Source: Cellulosimicrobium composti (lineage in GTDB: Bacteria > Actinomycetota > Actinomycetes > Actinomycetales > Cellulomonadaceae). From it: a DNA stretch of 64,000 bases. The notes under the pieces are model-generated. The model worked only from the letters and a program-made list of their open reading frames with translations, was not told where the DNA came from and searched no databases. Below, piece after piece: positions 26,698 through 42,880 of the stretch (position 1 is the first letter of the stretch; the number at the start of each line of letters is the position of its first letter). The stretch is taken from NCBI RefSeq assembly GCF_009711085.1, contig NZ_WMKA01000007.1, forward strand, positions 1 through 64,000, written 5' to 3'. The position numbers were made by a program, and so were the translations under genes.

Positions 26698-27339
26698 TCA
26701 GGCGACCGCGGTCGCGAGCACCGCGAACGTCGGGTCGGGCGTGATCGGCGACGGCGCGGGCTCCTCGCCCGCGGGACCGCTCGTCATCTCCCACGTCCCG
26801 TCGCCCTCGACGCGCACGGCCGCGGTCCGGGCGCCCGACGCGTCGACGACCTTGATGCTGCCGCCGAACGGGCGGCCGGGGAGCTGCGCGAACGCCGCCC
26901 GGACGAACCGCGAGGCCGCGTCCGCGAGCGGGTCGCCCATCTGGAGCGGTCGCACGTGCCAGATGCCGAACGGCCGGGGCTCGAGCACGACCGCGCCGCC
27001 CTGCGCGCCCACGAGCAGCGCCGCGTTGGTGCGCTCGTCCGCGATCGCGGCGGCCTCGACCCACTCCGTCGCGGTCGTGAGGACGCGCGTCAGCGGGACG
27101 ACGTTCCCGACCGGCGCGAGGTTCTCCCCCTCGACGGCCGCGAGCCGGCGCACGACGAGCGAGCTCACGCCCGCCGCGAGGAGCGGCGAGTCGGCGGGGA
27201 GGTCGGGCAGGCGCAGGCTCTCGCGCGTGCGCGTCGCCGCGGGGCCCTCGTTGAGGGAGAGGAGCACGAGCAGCTCCGGCCCCGTGAGCTCGATGAGCCC
27301 GTCGTCCGGACGGTTCGCCGTCTCGGTCTGCGTGGTCAT
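26698..27339 (-). CDS. WXG100-cassette partner protein (cassette 1)
   Basis: 213 aa, soluble, no signal peptide. Block order: LIELTGPELLVLLSL..., SPLLAAGVSSLVVRRLAA, VVPLTRVLTTATEWVEAAAIAD, AALLVGAQGGAVVLEPRPFGIWHVRPL, AASRFVRAAFAQLPGR, RTAAVRVEGDGTWEMTSGP. The same blocks in the same order appear in the 275-aa protein encoded directly after the second WXG100 gene (40644-41471), so the two look paralogous. By position and fold pattern (alternating helices and a central beta-sheet) it could be an EspG-like chaperone for the WXG100 protein or an immunity protein. It lies 55 nt after the WXG100 stop, probably the same transcript. Confidence 0.7.
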   Translation of the reverse strand: MTTQTETANRPDDGLIELTGPELLVLLSLNEGPAATRTRESLRLPDLPADSPLLAAGVSSLVVRRLAAVEGENLAPVGNVVPLTRVLTTATEWVEAAAIADERTNAALLVGAQGGAVVLEPRPFGIWHVRPLQMGDPLADAASRFVRAAFAQLPGRPFGGSIKVVDASGARTAAVRVEGDGTWEMTSGPAGEEPAPSPITPDPTFAVLATAVA

Positions 27340-27394: not shown

Positions 27395-28342
27395 TCACCA
27401 CGGCCAGGCCTTCTTCAGCGTCTCGGTCGCCCCGTCGAGGAAGTCCCCGCCCGCGTCCCAGACGTCGCTCGCGACGCTGGCGGCGCCGGACGCGAGGTCG
27501 CCCCCACGATCCCACAGCCAGCCCGCGCCGTCGGCGATGCGCTTGGTCACCGGGACGTCGCCGGACAGGAGGGTCGCGATGCCCCACACGGCACCCGCGC
27601 CCGCGATCGCCCAGCCCACGGGGTTGCTCGCGAGGAAGATCGCCGCGCCGATGCCCGCGGCGCCGAGACCGGCCGTGATGACGCCGTCGGTGCCCTTGAA
27701 GCCGTCACCCTCCGCGAAGCCCTCCCAGGCCTGCATCGTGCCGCTGTACACCGAGTAGCCGTCGAAGATGAACCCGGCGCCCTTGAGCACCTTCCCGGCG
27801 GAGGCCAGGTTGTCGGCGAGCCCGAGCGCGTTGAGCGGGTCGTCGAGCTTGTTCATCGTGGCCCAGGCGTCGAGGCCCTCGGACGCGATCCAGTTGAGCA
27901 CGCCGCCCTGCGTCATGTCGGTCGACAGCCACGACGGCGGGACGAGCCAGTCCGGGGGACCGCCGTCGCCCGACTGGCTCGTCGGGTCGCCGGGGCCACC
28001 GGGAGAACCGGGGCCGCCGGGGGAGCCCGGACCACCGGGACCCCCGGGGCCGCCGGGACCTCCCGGTCCGCCGTCGCGGCTCGCGGAGTCCTGCTGGTCG
28101 GCGTTGCCGCGCAGGAGGTCGGCCGCGTCGGTGAGGAGCGCGGCGGTGCCGGTCAGGCTCGGCCGGAGGGTCGACGTCCACGCGGAGCGGAACTCCGCGG
28201 CGTCCGACCCCTCCCAGCGCGCCCCGCCGACCGCCGTCTCGATCGCGGACGCGGCCAGCTCGAGCGCCTGCGCGCCATCCGCCACCCTGCCCGCGAGCGA
28301 GCGCAGGGCCTCGACGTCGGCCCCGTACATCCCGCTGCTCAT
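27395..28342 (-). CDS. WXG100-domain protein with collagen-like linker and hydrophobic C-terminal domain (cassette 1)
   Basis: 315 aa. Residues 1-~90 form a WXG100 helical hairpin with W43-E-G in ARWEGSDAAEFRSAW. Residues ~97-135 are a G-P-G/G-S-P collagen-like repeat. The C-terminal 170 residues (NWIASEGLDAWATMNKLDD...GAGFIFDGYSVYSGTMQAWEGF...GLGAAGIGAAIFLASNPVGWAIAGAGAVWGI...WDAGGDFLDGATETLKKAW) contain a glycine/alanine-rich hydrophobic hairpin resembling membrane-inserting domains. WXG100 proteins are type VII secretion substrates or effectors; this architecture suggests a secreted pore-like or surface protein. ATG 28342 has GAGAGG 6 nt upstream. Confidence 0.85.
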   Translation of the reverse strand: MSSGMYGADVEALRSLAGRVADGAQALELAASAIETAVGGARWEGSDAAEFRSAWTSTLRPSLTGTAALLTDAADLLRGNADQQDSASRDGGPGGPGGPGGPGGPGSPGGPGSPGGPGDPTSQSGDGGPPDWLVPPSWLSTDMTQGGVLNWIASEGLDAWATMNKLDDPLNALGLADNLASAGKVLKGAGFIFDGYSVYSGTMQAWEGFAEGDGFKGTDGVITAGLGAAGIGAAIFLASNPVGWAIAGAGAVWGIATLLSGDVPVTKRIADGAGWLWDRGGDLASGAASVASDVWDAGGDFLDGATETLKKAWPW

Positions 28343-28472: not shown

Positions 28473-28784
28473 TCAGGACGGTCGCACGCCGCGACGGCGG
28501 TCGTCGGCGACGAGCTCGCGGTACCGGCGCCACTGCCGGACGGCGAAGCGGGCGAGGAACGCGCAGCCGAGCACGCCCACGGCGACCCACCCCCACGGGA
28601 ACGGGTCCCCCACGTGGTAGCTGCGCAGGCTGTCCGTCCAGCCGTACACCTGGGCGCGGTACCAGCCGAGCACGAACACCGCGACGACGGCCGGCGGCAC
28701 GGCGGCCGCGAACGTGAGGAACCACGCGTACGTGCGCGCCTGCTGGGTGTCGCCCGCGAACCGCGTGCGCGGTGCCCCGCTCAT
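28473..28784 (-). CDS. Small two-helix membrane protein next to WXG100 cassette 1
   Basis: 103 aa from ATG 28784 (GGAGG 8 nt upstream). Helices AWFLTFAAAVPPAVVAVFVLGWY and WGWVAVGVLGCAFLARF with a short loop (RAQVYGWTDSLRSYHVGDPF) and a basic tail. No family recognised. It ends 8 bp before the promoter element of the WXG100 gene and is on the same strand, so it may belong functionally with the cassette. The hydrophobic helices and clear SD support a real gene. Confidence 0.7.
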   Translation of the reverse strand: MSGAPRTRFAGDTQQARTYAWFLTFAAAVPPAVVAVFVLGWYRAQVYGWTDSLRSYHVGDPFPWGWVAVGVLGCAFLARFAVRQWRRYRELVADDRRRGVRPS

Positions 28785-38601: not shown

Positions 38602-39453
38602 TCAGAAGGGCTTGCGCGCCACGACGAGGAAGCGCGGCGCCTCGTCGACGAACTCGTGGCCCGCCGCGAGGTGCAGGTGCAGCGCGCGCAGCGGCGCCTC
38701 GTACCGCGCGACCGCCTCGGGGGACAGGGACGCGAGGTCGGGCACCTGCCACGCGACGAGCCTGAGGTACCAGAGCACGGAGGACAGGTCCCGGAAGCGG
38801 CGCAGCCCCTCGTGCTCGCGCGCGACGTCGACGACGAACCCGGCGTCGCGCAGCACCTCGACGGCGGCGCCGAGCGTCACGGAGTCCGGGTCCCACGGCA
38901 GCGGGGCGCCGAGCGCCGTGCTGAGGCGCACCCCGTCGCGCGAGTCGGCCTGCTCGGTGAGGAACACCCCGCCCGGCTCGAGCACGCGCAGGACCTCGTC
39001 CGGGTCGAACTCCTCGTGCCGGTCGAGCACGACCGCGAACTGCCCGTCGAAGAACGGCAGGAGCTGCTCGTCGTCGTCGCTCTCGACCGGGCGCACGTCC
39101 ACGCCCAGGGGCTCGAGCCGACGCCGGGCCACCGGCAGGTTGGACGGGCGCCCCTCGGTCGCGGCCGAGCCCGCCGGGAACGGCGCGAGGGTCGACAGGA
39201 GCTCGCCGCCGCCCGTCCCCAGGTCGAGCACCGGACCGCGCCCGCTCGCGACGAGCTCGCGCGCGAGCGCGGCGTAGTCCCACGGCAGCGGGTCCTCGAC
39301 GACGCGGCCCTCGACGGGCGCCAGGTCGAGACCCACGACGGGCACCGAGCGCGCCCACGCCACGTGCTCCTCGAACGGCGCGTCCCGCGCGGGGACGGGC
39401 ACGGCGGCCGTCCGGTCGGACGTGGCGGGGGTGTCGGGTACCGCGGCAGGCAT
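38602..39453 (-). CDS. Class I SAM-dependent methyltransferase
   Basis: 283 aa. Motif I GPVLDLGTGGGELLSTL, acidic residue at ATEGRPSNLPVARRRLEPLGVDVRPVESDD, motif around QFAVVLDRHEEFDPDEVLRVLEPGGVFLTEQ. This is the Methyltransf_11/25 pattern; the substrate is unknown. The N-terminal 70 residues (HVAWARSVPVVGLDLAPVEGRVVEDPLPWDYAALAREL) are conserved-looking and may recognise substrate. ATG 39453 was chosen because GACAAT ends 6 nt upstream (leaderless type) and earlier in-frame codons run into the divergent promoter region. Confidence 0.88.
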   Translation of the reverse strand: MPAAVPDTPATSDRTAAVPVPARDAPFEEHVAWARSVPVVGLDLAPVEGRVVEDPLPWDYAALARELVASGRGPVLDLGTGGGELLSTLAPFPAGSAATEGRPSNLPVARRRLEPLGVDVRPVESDDDEQLLPFFDGQFAVVLDRHEEFDPDEVLRVLEPGGVFLTEQADSRDGVRLSTALGAPLPWDPDSVTLGAAVEVLRDAGFVVDVAREHEGLRRFRDLSSVLWYLRLVAWQVPDLASLSPEAVARYEAPLRALHLHLAAGHEFVDEAPRFLVVARKPF

Positions 39454-39642: not shown

Positions 39643-40647
39643 GTGAGCGGTATGTGGGGCGCGGACGTCACCGAGCTGAGGAGGCTGGCGCGGTCGCTGC
39701 AGTCCGCGTCGGACCAGCTCGTGAGCACGACGTCCGAGGTGAGCGGGCTCGTGGAGGCGGCAGGGCGCTGGCAGGGCGGCGACGCCGACCAGTTCCGCAG
39801 CGAGTGGACGGGCACGTCGGTCGCGCTGCTGCGCGGGGTGAGCCAGACGCTCTCCCAGGCGTCCGAGGCGGTGCTGCGCAACGCCGACGAGCAGTTCATG
39901 ACGAGCACCGAGGGCGGCAGCATCCCGTCACCCGGCGTGCCCGGCCCGGGCGTGCCCACGGGTCCCGGGGGCGGACCGCTCGGCCGCGACGACCCGCTCG
40001 ACGGCTCGATCTGGGACGTCGGCGAGACCGCGTGGGGCGCGATCTCGTTCGGCCTCGCCGGGTGGAAGACGTGGAAGGTGGGCCAGTCGCTCACCGCGTT
40101 CCTCCAGGCCAGCCGCCTCGCCGACCTGTCCGACGCCGCGGCGAGCGCGTCGGTCTTCGCGCGTGGCATGGTGCTCGACGACGCGATGGGACTGCTCGGG
40201 GGCCTCGGCACCGCGGGACGCATCGCGGGCGGCGTCGGCGGGCTGTTCGGCGTCATCGGCGGCGTCAACCAGATGTTCAACACCCAGTACGACGGCTGGC
40301 GCGGGGGCGTCGACCGCGTCATGGGCGGCCTGTCGGTCGTCGGCGGCGCGGGGACGATGCTCATGATGGCCGGCATGCTGACCAACCCCGTGGGCATCGG
40401 CGTCGTCGTCGGCGCGGGCGTCGTCGCGGGCGCGTGGGCGCTCGGGAACCTCGTCGTCGACAACTGGGACTCGATCACGGGCTTCGTCTCGAACCCGGGT
40501 CCGTACCTCGCGGACGGCTGGGGGCACGTCACCGACTTCGCGAGCAGCGCGGCCGATACGATCGGGAACGCCGTGTCCGACGTCGGGGACGCGATCGGCG
40601 ACGGGCTCTCCGCCGCCGGTGACTTCATCGGAGGGCTCTTCTCGTGA
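39643..40647 (+). CDS. WXG100-domain protein with Gly/Pro linker and hydrophobic C-terminal domain (cassette 2)
   Basis: 334 aa. WXG100 hairpin at 1-~95 with W43-Q-G in GRWQGGDADQFRSEW, exactly the residue position of the motif in the cassette 1 paralogue; both begin SGMxGADVxxLRxLA. A Gly/Pro linker (~105-125) leads to a C-terminal region with Gly/Ala-rich helices (LLGGLGTAGRIAGGVGGLFGVIGGVNQMF; VMGGLSVVGGAGTMLMMAGMLTNPVGIGVVVGAGVVAGAWALG) and an amphipathic end (AADTIGNAVSDVGDAIGDGLSAAGDFIGGLF). Likely a type VII-secreted effector or surface protein. GTG 39643 start; the next gene overlaps by GTGA. Confidence 0.85.
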   Translation: MSGMWGADVTELRRLARSLQSASDQLVSTTSEVSGLVEAAGRWQGGDADQFRSEWTGTSVALLRGVSQTLSQASEAVLRNADEQFMTSTEGGSIPSPGVPGPGVPTGPGGGPLGRDDPLDGSIWDVGETAWGAISFGLAGWKTWKVGQSLTAFLQASRLADLSDAAASASVFARGMVLDDAMGLLGGLGTAGRIAGGVGGLFGVIGGVNQMFNTQYDGWRGGVDRVMGGLSVVGGAGTMLMMAGMLTNPVGIGVVVGAGVVAGAWALGNLVVDNWDSITGFVSNPGPYLADGWGHVTDFASSAADTIGNAVSDVGDAIGDGLSAAGDFIGGLFS

Positions 40648-41471
40648 CCCAGGAGACCATGCGCTGGTCCGCGTCCGACATCGCCGCGGCGGAGCGCACG
40701 CTGGAGCGCGCGACCGCGGGGGAGGTCACCCACGTCGTGACGCTCACGGACGAGGAGATCGTCATCCTCGACGGGCTCCAGAACCCGCAGATCGTCGCCG
40801 TGCCGTGGCTCGACGCGCAGGAGGGCGCCGACCGCGCGCTCGTGGGCCGCGTCGCGCTCCGCTCGCTGCTCGCGCGCGGCCTCGTCGTGCCCGCCGAGAA
40901 CACGGGCGGCGAGCCCGCGGCCGCCGGCTCCGGCGACGAGCGCCCGGCCGTCGGCATCGAGGCGGTCCCCGAGATCACCGGACCGCTCGTGCTGCGTCGC
41001 ACCGCGACCGCCATCCTCTCCGCGGAGCGCACCACGGCCCTCGGCCGGCACTGGGTCTACGTCTACCTCCACGAGGACGACCGCGTGCTCGAGGAGGAGG
41101 TCGCGCCGAGCGGCCACCACGCCTTCAGCGTCTACCCGCTCGCCGAGCTCGCCGGGCGGCTCGCGGTGTTCCTCGACCCGGGCGGCAAGGCGCTCCTGGA
41201 CGGCCGCACGCAGACGTTCACGACCGAGGAGTTCTCCGCCCGGGCGCCCGAGCTGCCCGAGCTCGCCGGGGCCCTCGCCGTGACGACGCTCGGCGCGGTG
41301 CACGCCGGTTCCGACGTGCTCGTGCAGGTCAGCGTGTACGCGACGCCCGACGGCGTCTACGTGGTCCGGGGCGGCGAGCACGGTGCCGACGGCGCCCCGA
41401 CGACGCTCACGCTCTCCGAGGTCGGGGCGGCCACCGTGCGCCGGCTCCCGGTCGAGCTCCTGGGTCGATGA
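40644..41471 (+). CDS. WXG100-cassette partner protein (cassette 2)
   Basis: 275 aa, soluble. Shares block order with the cassette 1 partner at 26698: VVTLTDEEIVILDGL..., RSLLARGLVVPAE, ITGPLVLRRTATAILSAERTTALGRHWVYVYL...HHAFSVYPLAELAGRLAVFLDPGGKALLDGR, and VQVSVYATPDGVYVVRGGEHG...LTLSEVGAATVRRLPVELL. An EspG-like chaperone or an immunity role is plausible; alignment is needed. Start GTG 40644 overlaps the WXG100 stop, and its own stop overlaps the next start (ATGA), so the three proteins are made together. Confidence 0.72.
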   Translation: MTQETMRWSASDIAAAERTLERATAGEVTHVVTLTDEEIVILDGLQNPQIVAVPWLDAQEGADRALVGRVALRSLLARGLVVPAENTGGEPAAAGSGDERPAVGIEAVPEITGPLVLRRTATAILSAERTTALGRHWVYVYLHEDDRVLEEEVAPSGHHAFSVYPLAELAGRLAVFLDPGGKALLDGRTQTFTTEEFSARAPELPELAGALAVTTLGAVHAGSDVLVQVSVYATPDGVYVVRGGEHGADGAPTTLTLSEVGAATVRRLPVELLGR

Positions 41472-42235
41472 GCGGCGCGGCGGCTCCCGCGGCGCCGACG
41501 GGCGCGCGCGCCACGCGCAAGGTGCGTCACCACGCGGCGGCGTCGGGCCTCGGGGCGGTGCGCCACGTGTCGGCCTCGACGCCCAACGCGCCCGCGTGGA
41601 CGGTCGTCGTCGTCCTCGTGCTCGTGTTCTCGGTGGGCCCCGCGCTCGTGGGCAACGCCGGCGTCGGCGCGATCGGGTACCTGCTGCCGTCGTTCGTGGC
41701 GATCGCCGCCGTGATCCTGTGGTTCCTCGCGTCGGAGAAGCTCGTCGTGCTGGACCACGGGATCCTCGTCGGGTCGTTCGCCCCGTTCCAGCGCCCGGTG
41801 GCGGTGCCGTTCGCCGCGCTCGACGTGACGTCGGTGCGGGCCGTCGTCGCGAGCCAGCGCACCCTCGGCCTCCTGCTCGCGGACCGCGGCGTCTCCACGG
41901 CGTCGCGCACCGTGCTGTGGTCGCGGCGCGCGGTGACGTTCGTCGGCGTGGCGCCGCGAGCCCTGCGCCAGGCCCGGGCGCGGGGCGAGCACGTCGACCT
42001 CGGGACGGCGTCGGCCGTGGACCTCTGGGTGTTCTCCGCGCGCGACCCGCGCCGTCAGGAGCAGGTCGTCCGCGCGCTCGGCGACGCGGCGCGTGCGGCC
42101 GGGGTGCCCGGGGCGGAGCACGTCGAGGCGCGCGCGCTGCCCGCGCAGCCCGTGCCGGTCTCGCCGCAGGGGGCGGACCGCCTCGCGATCCCCGAGCGCT
42201 TCCGCAGCGCGCGAGCCCGGCAGCCGGCGCGCTGA
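41468..42235 (+). CDS. Two-helix membrane protein with PH-like domain (cassette 2)
   Basis: 255 aa. A basic N-terminus precedes two helices (AWTVVVVLVLVFSVGPALVG; GYLLPSFVAIAAVILWFLA). The following SEKLVVLDHGILVGSFAPFQRPVAVPFAALDVTSVRAVVAS resembles the beta-barrel start of bacterial PH-like (bPH) membrane proteins. The C-terminus is helical (RQEQVVRALGDAARAAGVPGAE) and basic. ATG 41468 overlaps the partner gene stop. It could anchor or export the WXG100 protein. Not present as such in cassette 1, which has a smaller two-helix protein instead. Confidence 0.75.
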   Translation: MSGAAAPAAPTGARATRKVRHHAAASGLGAVRHVSASTPNAPAWTVVVVLVLVFSVGPALVGNAGVGAIGYLLPSFVAIAAVILWFLASEKLVVLDHGILVGSFAPFQRPVAVPFAALDVTSVRAVVASQRTLGLLLADRGVSTASRTVLWSRRAVTFVGVAPRALRQARARGEHVDLGTASAVDLWVFSARDPRRQEQVVRALGDAARAAGVPGAEHVEARALPAQPVPVSPQGADRLAIPERFRSARARQPAR

Positions 42236-42283: not shown

Positions 42284-42880
42284 TCAGACCGTCGCGGTCC
42301 CGAACGCCGCGGCCAGGCGGGCCGTCGCGCCGCCACCGGTCGGCGTGGCGACCGCGAGGGCCCCGACCTGCAGCACCATCCACGGGCTGAACGCCCACGG
42401 GGTCGCGGCGACCGCGCGCGCGACGTCCTGCGGGTCGGCCCACGCGACCTCGACGACCTCGTCGGGGTTCGGCTCGACCGGCCCCGCGGCGCGCGCGGTG
42501 TACACGGGGCAGATCTCGTTCTCGACGACGCCCGACGCGTCGACCGCGCGGTAGCGGAACCCGGGCACGGCGACCTCGAGGTCGGCGATCTCCAGGCCGA
42601 GCTCGTGGCGCCCGTGCCGGACGATCGACTCCTCGGTCGTCTCCGTCCACCGCGGGTGCCCGCAGAACGAGTTGGTCCAGACACCCGGCCACGTGCGCTT
42701 GACGAGCGCGCGCCGCGTGAGGAGCAGGCGCCCGGCGTCGTCGAGCACGTAGCAGGAGAAGGCGAGGTGCAGCGGCGTCTCGGTCGTGTGGACCGCGGCG
42801 CGCTCGAAGGTGCCGGTCCGGCGTCCCTCGTCGTCGACGGTGACGACGTGGTCGGGGGCCACGGGAACGTGCGAGGTCAT
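42284..42880 (-). CDS. idi: Isopentenyl-diphosphate delta-isomerase, type 1
   Basis: 198 aa. Nudix-fold IDI: LLLTRRALVKRTWPGVWTNSFCGHPRWTETTEESIVRHGRHELGLE holds the active-site Cys (SFCGHP) and metal ligands, and ENEICPVYTAR holds the catalytic Glu. Converts IPP to DMAPP for isoprenoids. ATG 42880 was chosen because GAGAGT ends 6 nt upstream and the Idi N-terminus starts there. Isolated from other isoprenoid genes. Confidence 0.95.
   Translation of the reverse strand: MTSHVPVAPDHVVTVDDEGRRTGTFERAAVHTTETPLHLAFSCYVLDDAGRLLLTRRALVKRTWPGVWTNSFCGHPRWTETTEESIVRHGRHELGLEIADLEVAVPGFRYRAVDASGVVENEICPVYTARAAGPVEPNPDEVVEVAWADPQDVARAVAATPWAFSPWMVLQVGALAVATPTGGGATARLAAAFGTATV

Follow-up and report, generated by a model that had tools for sequence, protein, structure and literature searches.

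The closest working analogue of the genes described here, although it has different parts, is EsxX of Staphylococcus aureus, a membrane-depolarising toxin of the type VII secretion system (T7SS). The soluble proteins ExiAB are always encoded beside it, and the membrane proteins ExiCD are also found without an EsxX gene (PMC12744356). EspG is a chaperone of the T7SSa, and an EspG-like protein, TscG, occurs in Bacillota (PMC11217815). We analysed a 64,000-nucleotide stretch of Cellulosimicrobium composti DNA (the window; contig C118 of a 4.3 Mb genome in 150 contigs), and in particular cassette 2, a unit of three same-strand genes tied together by a GTGA overlap of effector and partner and an ATGA overlap of partner and membrane gene, as the original prediction, made from the sequence alone, had noted. 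The three linked genes look like those for a T7SS cargo, an EspG-fold chaperone and a membrane protein with a probable role in protecting cells, which suggests an inter-bacterial weapon of a soil-type bacterium. The features of cassette 2, by window position, are as follows.

39643..40647, + strand: effector (effector 2), 334 aa, GTG start at 39643 and TGA stop at 40647; WXG domain in residues 1-90, Gly/Pro linker 91-114, variable region 115-200, hydrophobic hairpin region 201-275, conserved tail 276-334
39643..39912, + strand: WXG-type N-terminal domain of the effector, below the cut-off to Pfam WXG100 and TIGR03930
40318..40458, + strand: hydrophobic hairpin of the effector, stretches at residues 226-246 and 254-272 with NPVG (residues 248-251) between them
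40644..41471, + strand: partner (partner 2), 275 aa, GTG start at 40644, predicted EspG fold
41468..42235, + strand: membrane protein, 255 aa, ATG start at 41468, candidate immunity protein

Like the EsxX system of the S. aureus T7SSb, cassette 2 joins a T7SS-targeting N-terminal domain to a C-terminus that would be membrane-active, has a soluble cytoplasmic partner beside the putative toxin gene, and has a membrane protein that also occurs without the toxin gene (PMC12744356). Its parts differ, however, in that the N-terminal domain is of the WXG and not the LXG type, the C-domains in the window lack glycine-zipper enrichment, the ATPase is of an actinomycete FHA type, the predicted fold of partner 2 is that of EspG whereas a GyrI-like fold is reported for ExiAB, and the membrane protein has two hydrophobic segments whereas ExiC and ExiD have six helices each. 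None of the five window proteins scanned gave an LXG or DUF5085 hit over the cut-off, and LXG was listed at E 0.29 only. Partner 2 resembles mycobacterial T7SSa EspG in its predicted fold and in adjoining a WXG-superfamily T7SS substrate; unlike that EspG, it is tied to a substrate cassette and a hydrophobic C-domain, and the FHA-bearing ATPase here contrasts with T7SSa EccC, which is described without an FHA domain (PMC11217815). In TscG of the T7SSc, likewise, the resemblance to EspG emerges from structure comparison while the sequence has no recognised domain, but TscG is a core component, and its system, with an ATPase lacking FHA, was found only in Bacillota (PMC11217815). In TelE/TipE (PMC10434224) and TspA/TsaI (PMC7456083), as proposed here, a T7SS toxin that damages membranes has its own immunity protein, but these are Bacillota systems, unlike the present actinomycete cassette.

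The effector is one of two paralogues in the window. The other belongs to cassette 1, which lies on the opposite strand, with 11.3 kb separating the two WXG genes (a spacing of about 11 kb had been predicted), and has the following features.

27395..28342, - strand: cassette-1 effector, 315 aa, paralogue of the cassette-2 effector across both domains
26698..27339, - strand: cassette-1 partner (partner 1), 213 aa, whose relation to partner 2 is suggestive only
28473..28784, - strand: cassette-1 small membrane protein, 103 aa, third gene, upstream, candidate immunity protein

The traits first predicted for the second WXG protein are all visible in its sequence: WxG at residues 43-45 (W43-Q-G45, against W43-E-G45 in cassette 1), a start similar to that of the first (SGMWGADVTELRRLA and SGMYGADVEALRSLA being the start segments of the two proteins), a Gly/Pro-rich linker, and a hydrophobic Gly/Ala-rich stretch near the C-terminus. 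By BLASTP the two proteins share 39% identity over 89 residues (E 1e-12), and profile comparison of the N-domains gave E 2.5e-36 with a score of 183.8, where the best of 60 shuffled controls reached 21.6. Since Gly, Ala and Val abound in the C-domains, the C-domain comparison was rerun against 60 column-shuffled controls, and here too the score of 71.4 (E 1.6e-10) exceeded all of them (best 23.7), so that the proposed alignment of the two C-terminal domains gave a positive result. Both C-domains contain NPVG flanked by hydrophobic stretches in the same order, and the WXG domain ends in an A..Q...[ST] motif in all 40 N-domains aligned from the two cassette types. The N-domain of effector 2 scored below the cut-off for Pfam WXG100 (E 0.023) and TIGR03930 (E 0.0006); it is 38% identical (E 1.2e-11) to the WXG100 protein encoded beside the ATPase of the same genome and 41% and 42% identical to two further WXG fusions there. 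The WxG motif together with WXG100 homology in the N-domain places effector 2 among the putative T7SS substrates of the WXG100 superfamily. WXG fusions besides cassettes 1 and 2 are encoded on contigs C24, C62, C96 and C1, and one N-domain thus occurs with differing, exchangeable C-domains within one genome, as in polymorphic toxins.

Partner 2 is predicted by AlphaFold, from the window protein and those of 43 of the 45 named loci (all but L087 and L092), to have the fold of the EspG T7SS chaperones, matching them in structure comparison over 206-222 residues at 9-16% identity; by this model it falls within the EspG fold. No EspG family or PDB sequence was among the hits of sequence searches with partner 2, whose best named matches are Cellulosimicrobium strains at no more than 88% identity. 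Pfam scans of 44 partner-2 and 19 partner-1 members at E values up to 0.1 returned no hit named EspG, which carries weight to the extent that the library holds an EspG model, as we take it to do. Neither partner is a recognised Pfam family, although two of the 19 partner-1 relatives scanned have a Big_6 hit (best E 2.8e-5). The prediction of a family without a common name therefore held for the Pfam assignment, but partner 2 is not wholly new, given its predicted EspG fold.

The 45 named partner-2 loci come from Cellulosimicrobium, Antribacter, Promicromonospora, Myceligenerans, Paraoerskovia, Cellulomonas, Streptomyces, Nonomuraea and others. A gene with a hydrophobic C-domain precedes partner 2 in 44 of them, the exception being L108; this count rose from 40 when six starts were corrected by hand, the E threshold was relaxed from 1e-3 to 0.01 and a wider overlap was allowed, and it includes L087, which starts within the effector so that the N-domain is outside the view. 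Only 16 of the 44 upstream proteins matched the WXG N-domain profile. Some of the other N-domains may be distant WXG relatives; one protein of the Cellulomonas type hits WXG100 at E 0.001, below the cut-off. The gene coupling leads us to infer that partner 2 would bind the substrate and maintain its solubility until export. An EccC-like ATPase lies within 10 kb in 13 of the 45 loci, and that of Streptomyces alfalfae matches FtsK/SpoIIIE at 7.6e-63. A third gene, for a membrane protein, is usual in both cassettes among the relatives, so the predicted two-component family is better described as one of three components; the third gene of cassette 1 (28473-28784), which the prediction had not mentioned, has relatives directly behind the partner in several other genera.

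The cassette-2 membrane protein has two strongly hydrophobic segments and a soluble part. No Pfam family over the cut-off was found for it or three relatives, and among 17 members the best E was 0.0073, with weak DUF3093 hits in six (best E 0.013); the PH-like nature predicted for this protein was not established by these scans. Relatives of its gene were found in 28 of 221 genomes, ten of which have no partner 2. All ten of these loci were read for 1.5 kb on either side, with flanking genes recognised by eye. In eight of them the membrane gene stands between methyltransferase and NUDIX genes like those that flank the cassette in the window, with no effector or partner, and one of the eight carries two tandem copies. 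The flanking genes of the window are as follows.

38602..39402, - strand: methyltransferase-domain gene, left flank of the cassette-2 site, outside the cassette
42284..42880, - strand: NUDIX gene, right flank of the cassette-2 site, outside the cassette

In another of the ten loci the membrane gene is followed by a tandem pair of cassette-1 membrane-gene relatives, and G124 has a second copy near such a relative. By the thresholds used, 4 of the 26 genomes with the cassette-1 membrane gene lack partner 1, the surroundings of one (L178) having been read. Within the genus of the window the cassette-2 site is empty in L234 and L235 and the cassette-1 site in L237 and L239, and in L236 cassette 1 occupies the cassette-2 site.

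The membrane gene also diverges together with the middle of the effector. The comparison covered ten loci, namely the window and 9 of the 12 partner-2 relatives of its genus (all but L030, L031 and L033). In three of the nine relatives, DNA identity to the window was 89-91% in the WXG domain and only 62-66% in region 115-200, 78-80% in the hairpin region and 85-87% in the tail; it was 79-82% in the partner, 67-71% in the membrane gene and 86-89% in the NUDIX flank. The remaining six had no such identity step or were different throughout. Given the NUDIX flank, membrane-gene distance correlated with that of effector residues 115-200 (r 0.89), residues 201-275 (r 0.95) and the partner (r 0.94; p 0.0002 each), weakly with that of the tail (r 0.41, p 0.023), and not with that of the WXG domain over the ten loci (r 0.09, p 0.32). 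The effector-free copies and this co-divergence are consistent with a cognate immunity gene beside a toxin gene, making the membrane protein a candidate for protection.

Both partners are coupled to one type of ATPase. In the genome of the window, contig C107 encodes FHA, PP2C and kinase proteins and an FHA-FtsK ATPase, with a WXG100 gene after them. This ATPase was matched at E 1e-30 in 215 of 221 family genomes and was at least 67% identical in 37 of them (here and in all counts of this type below, among the matches listed; one of the 37, G159, matches residues 650-1489 only), the next listed being 55%. Matches weaker than 1e-50 were dropped for partner 2 (23 of 45 genomes, including the distant Cellulomonas-type family), weaker than 1e-20 for partner 1 (9 of 31) and weaker than 1e-9 for the cassette-1 membrane gene (10 of 36); none of the 28 genomes was dropped for the cassette-2 membrane gene. 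Partner 1 then remained in 22 genomes, 21 of them with this ATPase type, and partner 2 in 22, of which 20 have it. The exceptions are G123, a 75%-complete genome, and G176, whose effector has another N-domain. In genus g19, ATPase type and cassette are present together in six genomes and both absent in seven, and the type is missing in 5 of the 10 genomes with a membrane gene and no partner 2. Since the partners track one ATPase type across genomes, the earlier guess that EccC matters is supported, and export of the effector may depend on the EccC-type ATPase. The genomic coupling also matches the choice of substrate by EssC variants in S. aureus (PMC5994694). The C107 locus (L020:1-11191), which is truncated by the contig start, contains an LpqN-like gene as well. 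In genera g1, g15, g19 and g24, ATPase types (about 70% or more versus about 50% identical to that of the window genome) alternate within the genus and cargo differs; by analogy with staphylococcal EssC this may be an EccC variant switch.

We give a probability of roughly 0.6 to the reading that the cassettes are T7SS substrate modules with a membrane payload, an EspG-fold chaperone and a membrane immunity protein. Cassette 2 would then be a substrate module of the FHA-type T7SS encoded on contig C107, with the WXG domain as the targeting part for export and the hairpin-bearing C-domain as its payload. This payload would insert, most probably, into the cytoplasmic membrane of related bacteria nearby. 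The role of the EspG-fold partner would be to keep the payload, which is prone to aggregate and seeks membranes, in a soluble and harmless state inside the producing cell before it is exported. The membrane protein would shield the producer and its kin from exported payload, and cassette 1 would be a second module of the same kind. A substrate with an EspG-type chaperone could instead be a non-toxic secreted factor acting on membrane or envelope, such as a PPE-like porin or transport protein, whose third gene encodes a membrane docking or processing partner. This would suit the EspG fold, typical of chaperones crystallised with PE/PPE substrates, and the position of the cassette inside the secretion locus itself in some relatives, but we consider it unlikely in view of the membrane genes of genomes that lack partner 2 (and, in half of these, the ATPase type too), the clustered membrane genes without effector (L169, L188), the presence and absence within one genus, and the fast co-divergence of C-domain and membrane gene. 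Effector-free copies, patchy presence and fast co-divergence fit a conflict system better than housekeeping. It is still less probable, and in our judgement rather improbable, that the partner itself is the immunity protein, an antitoxin merely sharing the EspG fold, and the membrane protein an accessory. Its near-constant position behind the C-domain, its divergence with the central regions of the effector (r 0.70 and 0.86) and the neutralisation of the cytoplasmic toxin by the soluble ExiAB pair in the EsxX system (PMC12744356) would agree with that role; effector-free copies, the usual mark of immunity to a foreign toxin, were however found for membrane genes, whereas partner 2, among the 45 named loci, lacks a C-domain neighbour in L108 only, and the fold indicates chaperoning.

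Several observations weigh against the immunity-module reading. Secretion, membrane insertion, toxicity and immunity of the cassette are all steps that we infer. Since C-domain, partner and membrane gene adjoin, co-divergence may reflect shared recombination tracts, and linkage may account for part of it; the ten loci hold few independent events. The EspG fold of partner 2, which implies chaperoning rather than an antitoxin role, is counted on this side as well. The C-domains of the window show no enrichment of the glycine zipper (GxxxGxxxG) that EsxX and TelE have, with 5 motifs against 4.2 in shuffles for cassette 2 (P 0.42) and 0 against 2.8 for cassette 1; among relatives the family mean is above shuffles for cassette 2 (6.4 versus 4.6, s.d. 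0.5) and below for cassette 1 (1.5 versus 3.3) and the Cellulomonas type (2.3 versus 4.0). A weak 34-residue partner match near a partner-free membrane gene in G209 suggests that this copy may be a remnant. G020, G021, G163 and G192 have partner 2 and no member of the membrane family at the threshold used, with a small gene of another kind, encoding two transmembrane segments, behind the partner. Among the 37 genomes with the ATPase type, 16 lack partner 1 and 17 lack partner 2, and the Fisher values for the ATPase/partner association (2e-18 and 2e-16) are uncorrected for kinship. Distant partner-1 relatives, moreover, have no WXG effector within the 1.5 kb read.

For the partners of the two cassettes, the same block order had been claimed. 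BLASTP did not bear this out (E 0.15, on unrelated segments), and neither did default hhalign, with a probability of 2.1% and a score equalled by 2 of 60 shuffles. When profiles were deepened with relatives from a 347-genome search and the 45 named loci, one pairing aligned collinearly over 117 columns (probability 24%), its score of 32.0 exceeding the best of 40 shuffles (19.0), while two further pairings gave 2.4% and 1.6%, the latter score being reached by 1 of 40 shuffles. Homology of the partners, the point on which the prediction had staked itself, thus failed in default comparison and found one match in deeper profiles, which is suggestive only. That the partners are unrelated families, so that the cassettes have only the effector in common, agrees with the default searches and the two weak pairings and is quite possible, though the collinear match above all 40 controls tips us towards doubting it.

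Among the papers listed by our searches, which covered open-licence PMC, we saw none on this cassette, and every antibacterial T7SS toxin we noticed there whose immunity protein has been tested comes from Bacillota. T7SS variants including EspG-like TscG and the genetic linkage of Rhs toxins to the T7SSa have been described (PMC11217815; its main text makes no mention of Cellulosimicrobium, Cellulomonas or Streptomyces), actinobacterial WXG toxins have been predicted (PMC3482391), and WXG-calpain fusions have been noted (PMC4631099). At slightly under even odds, we propose that non-mycobacterial actinomycetes run an antibacterial T7SS in which the EspG-fold chaperone is tied to a membrane-active payload and not to the core, that hairpin effector, chaperone and two-segment immunity protein form an exchangeable module switching with the ATPase type, and that immunity genes are kept by strains without the weapon. 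If this is true, compartment-split protection in the style of EsxX has been reached with different parts. A clean unit of three genes, in which an EspG fold is predicted and whose immunity-like genes are also found alone, makes T7SS conflict in actinomycetes directly testable, and raises the question of whether EspG chaperones originated as keepers of dangerous hydrophobic cargo.

Among the other WXG fusions of the genome, the protein on contig C96 (L019:3772-5127, - strand) has a C-terminal calpain-family protease (Peptidase_C2) and is followed by a 91-residue gene without a Pfam hit, which is probably another effector/immunity pair. Those on C24, C62 and C1 (L017, L018, L021) have C-termini without an informative Pfam hit, that on C24 touching DUF2515 (E 3.8e-6); the C24 gene has a 4-base overlap with a lipoprotein-looking gene. 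The distant partner-1 relatives of family f11 (L143, L146, L147, L149), which have no WXG effector within the stretch read, include one beside a DUF4126 gene (L147) and two beside a gene similar by eye (L146, L149), and the partner-1-like protein may have another role there. A locus titled Sphaerisporangium cinnabarinum (L091, QAPD01000071.1) carries a cassette of the Cellulosimicrobium kind with a partner 77% identical, and the name of the record may be wrong. In Antribacter gilvus (L094:8587-11491), and likewise in L038, a copy of the core WXG100 gene stands on each side of cassette 2; the two are near-identical and could act as recombination arms. G191 (L041:410-3777) has a tandem second copy of effector and partner. 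In Streptomyces (L104, L106, L107), the genes for the C-domain protein and partner 2 have a small WXG100-like gene just downstream, possibly for a co-secretion partner, and an EccC-like ATPase is encoded less than 10 kb away.
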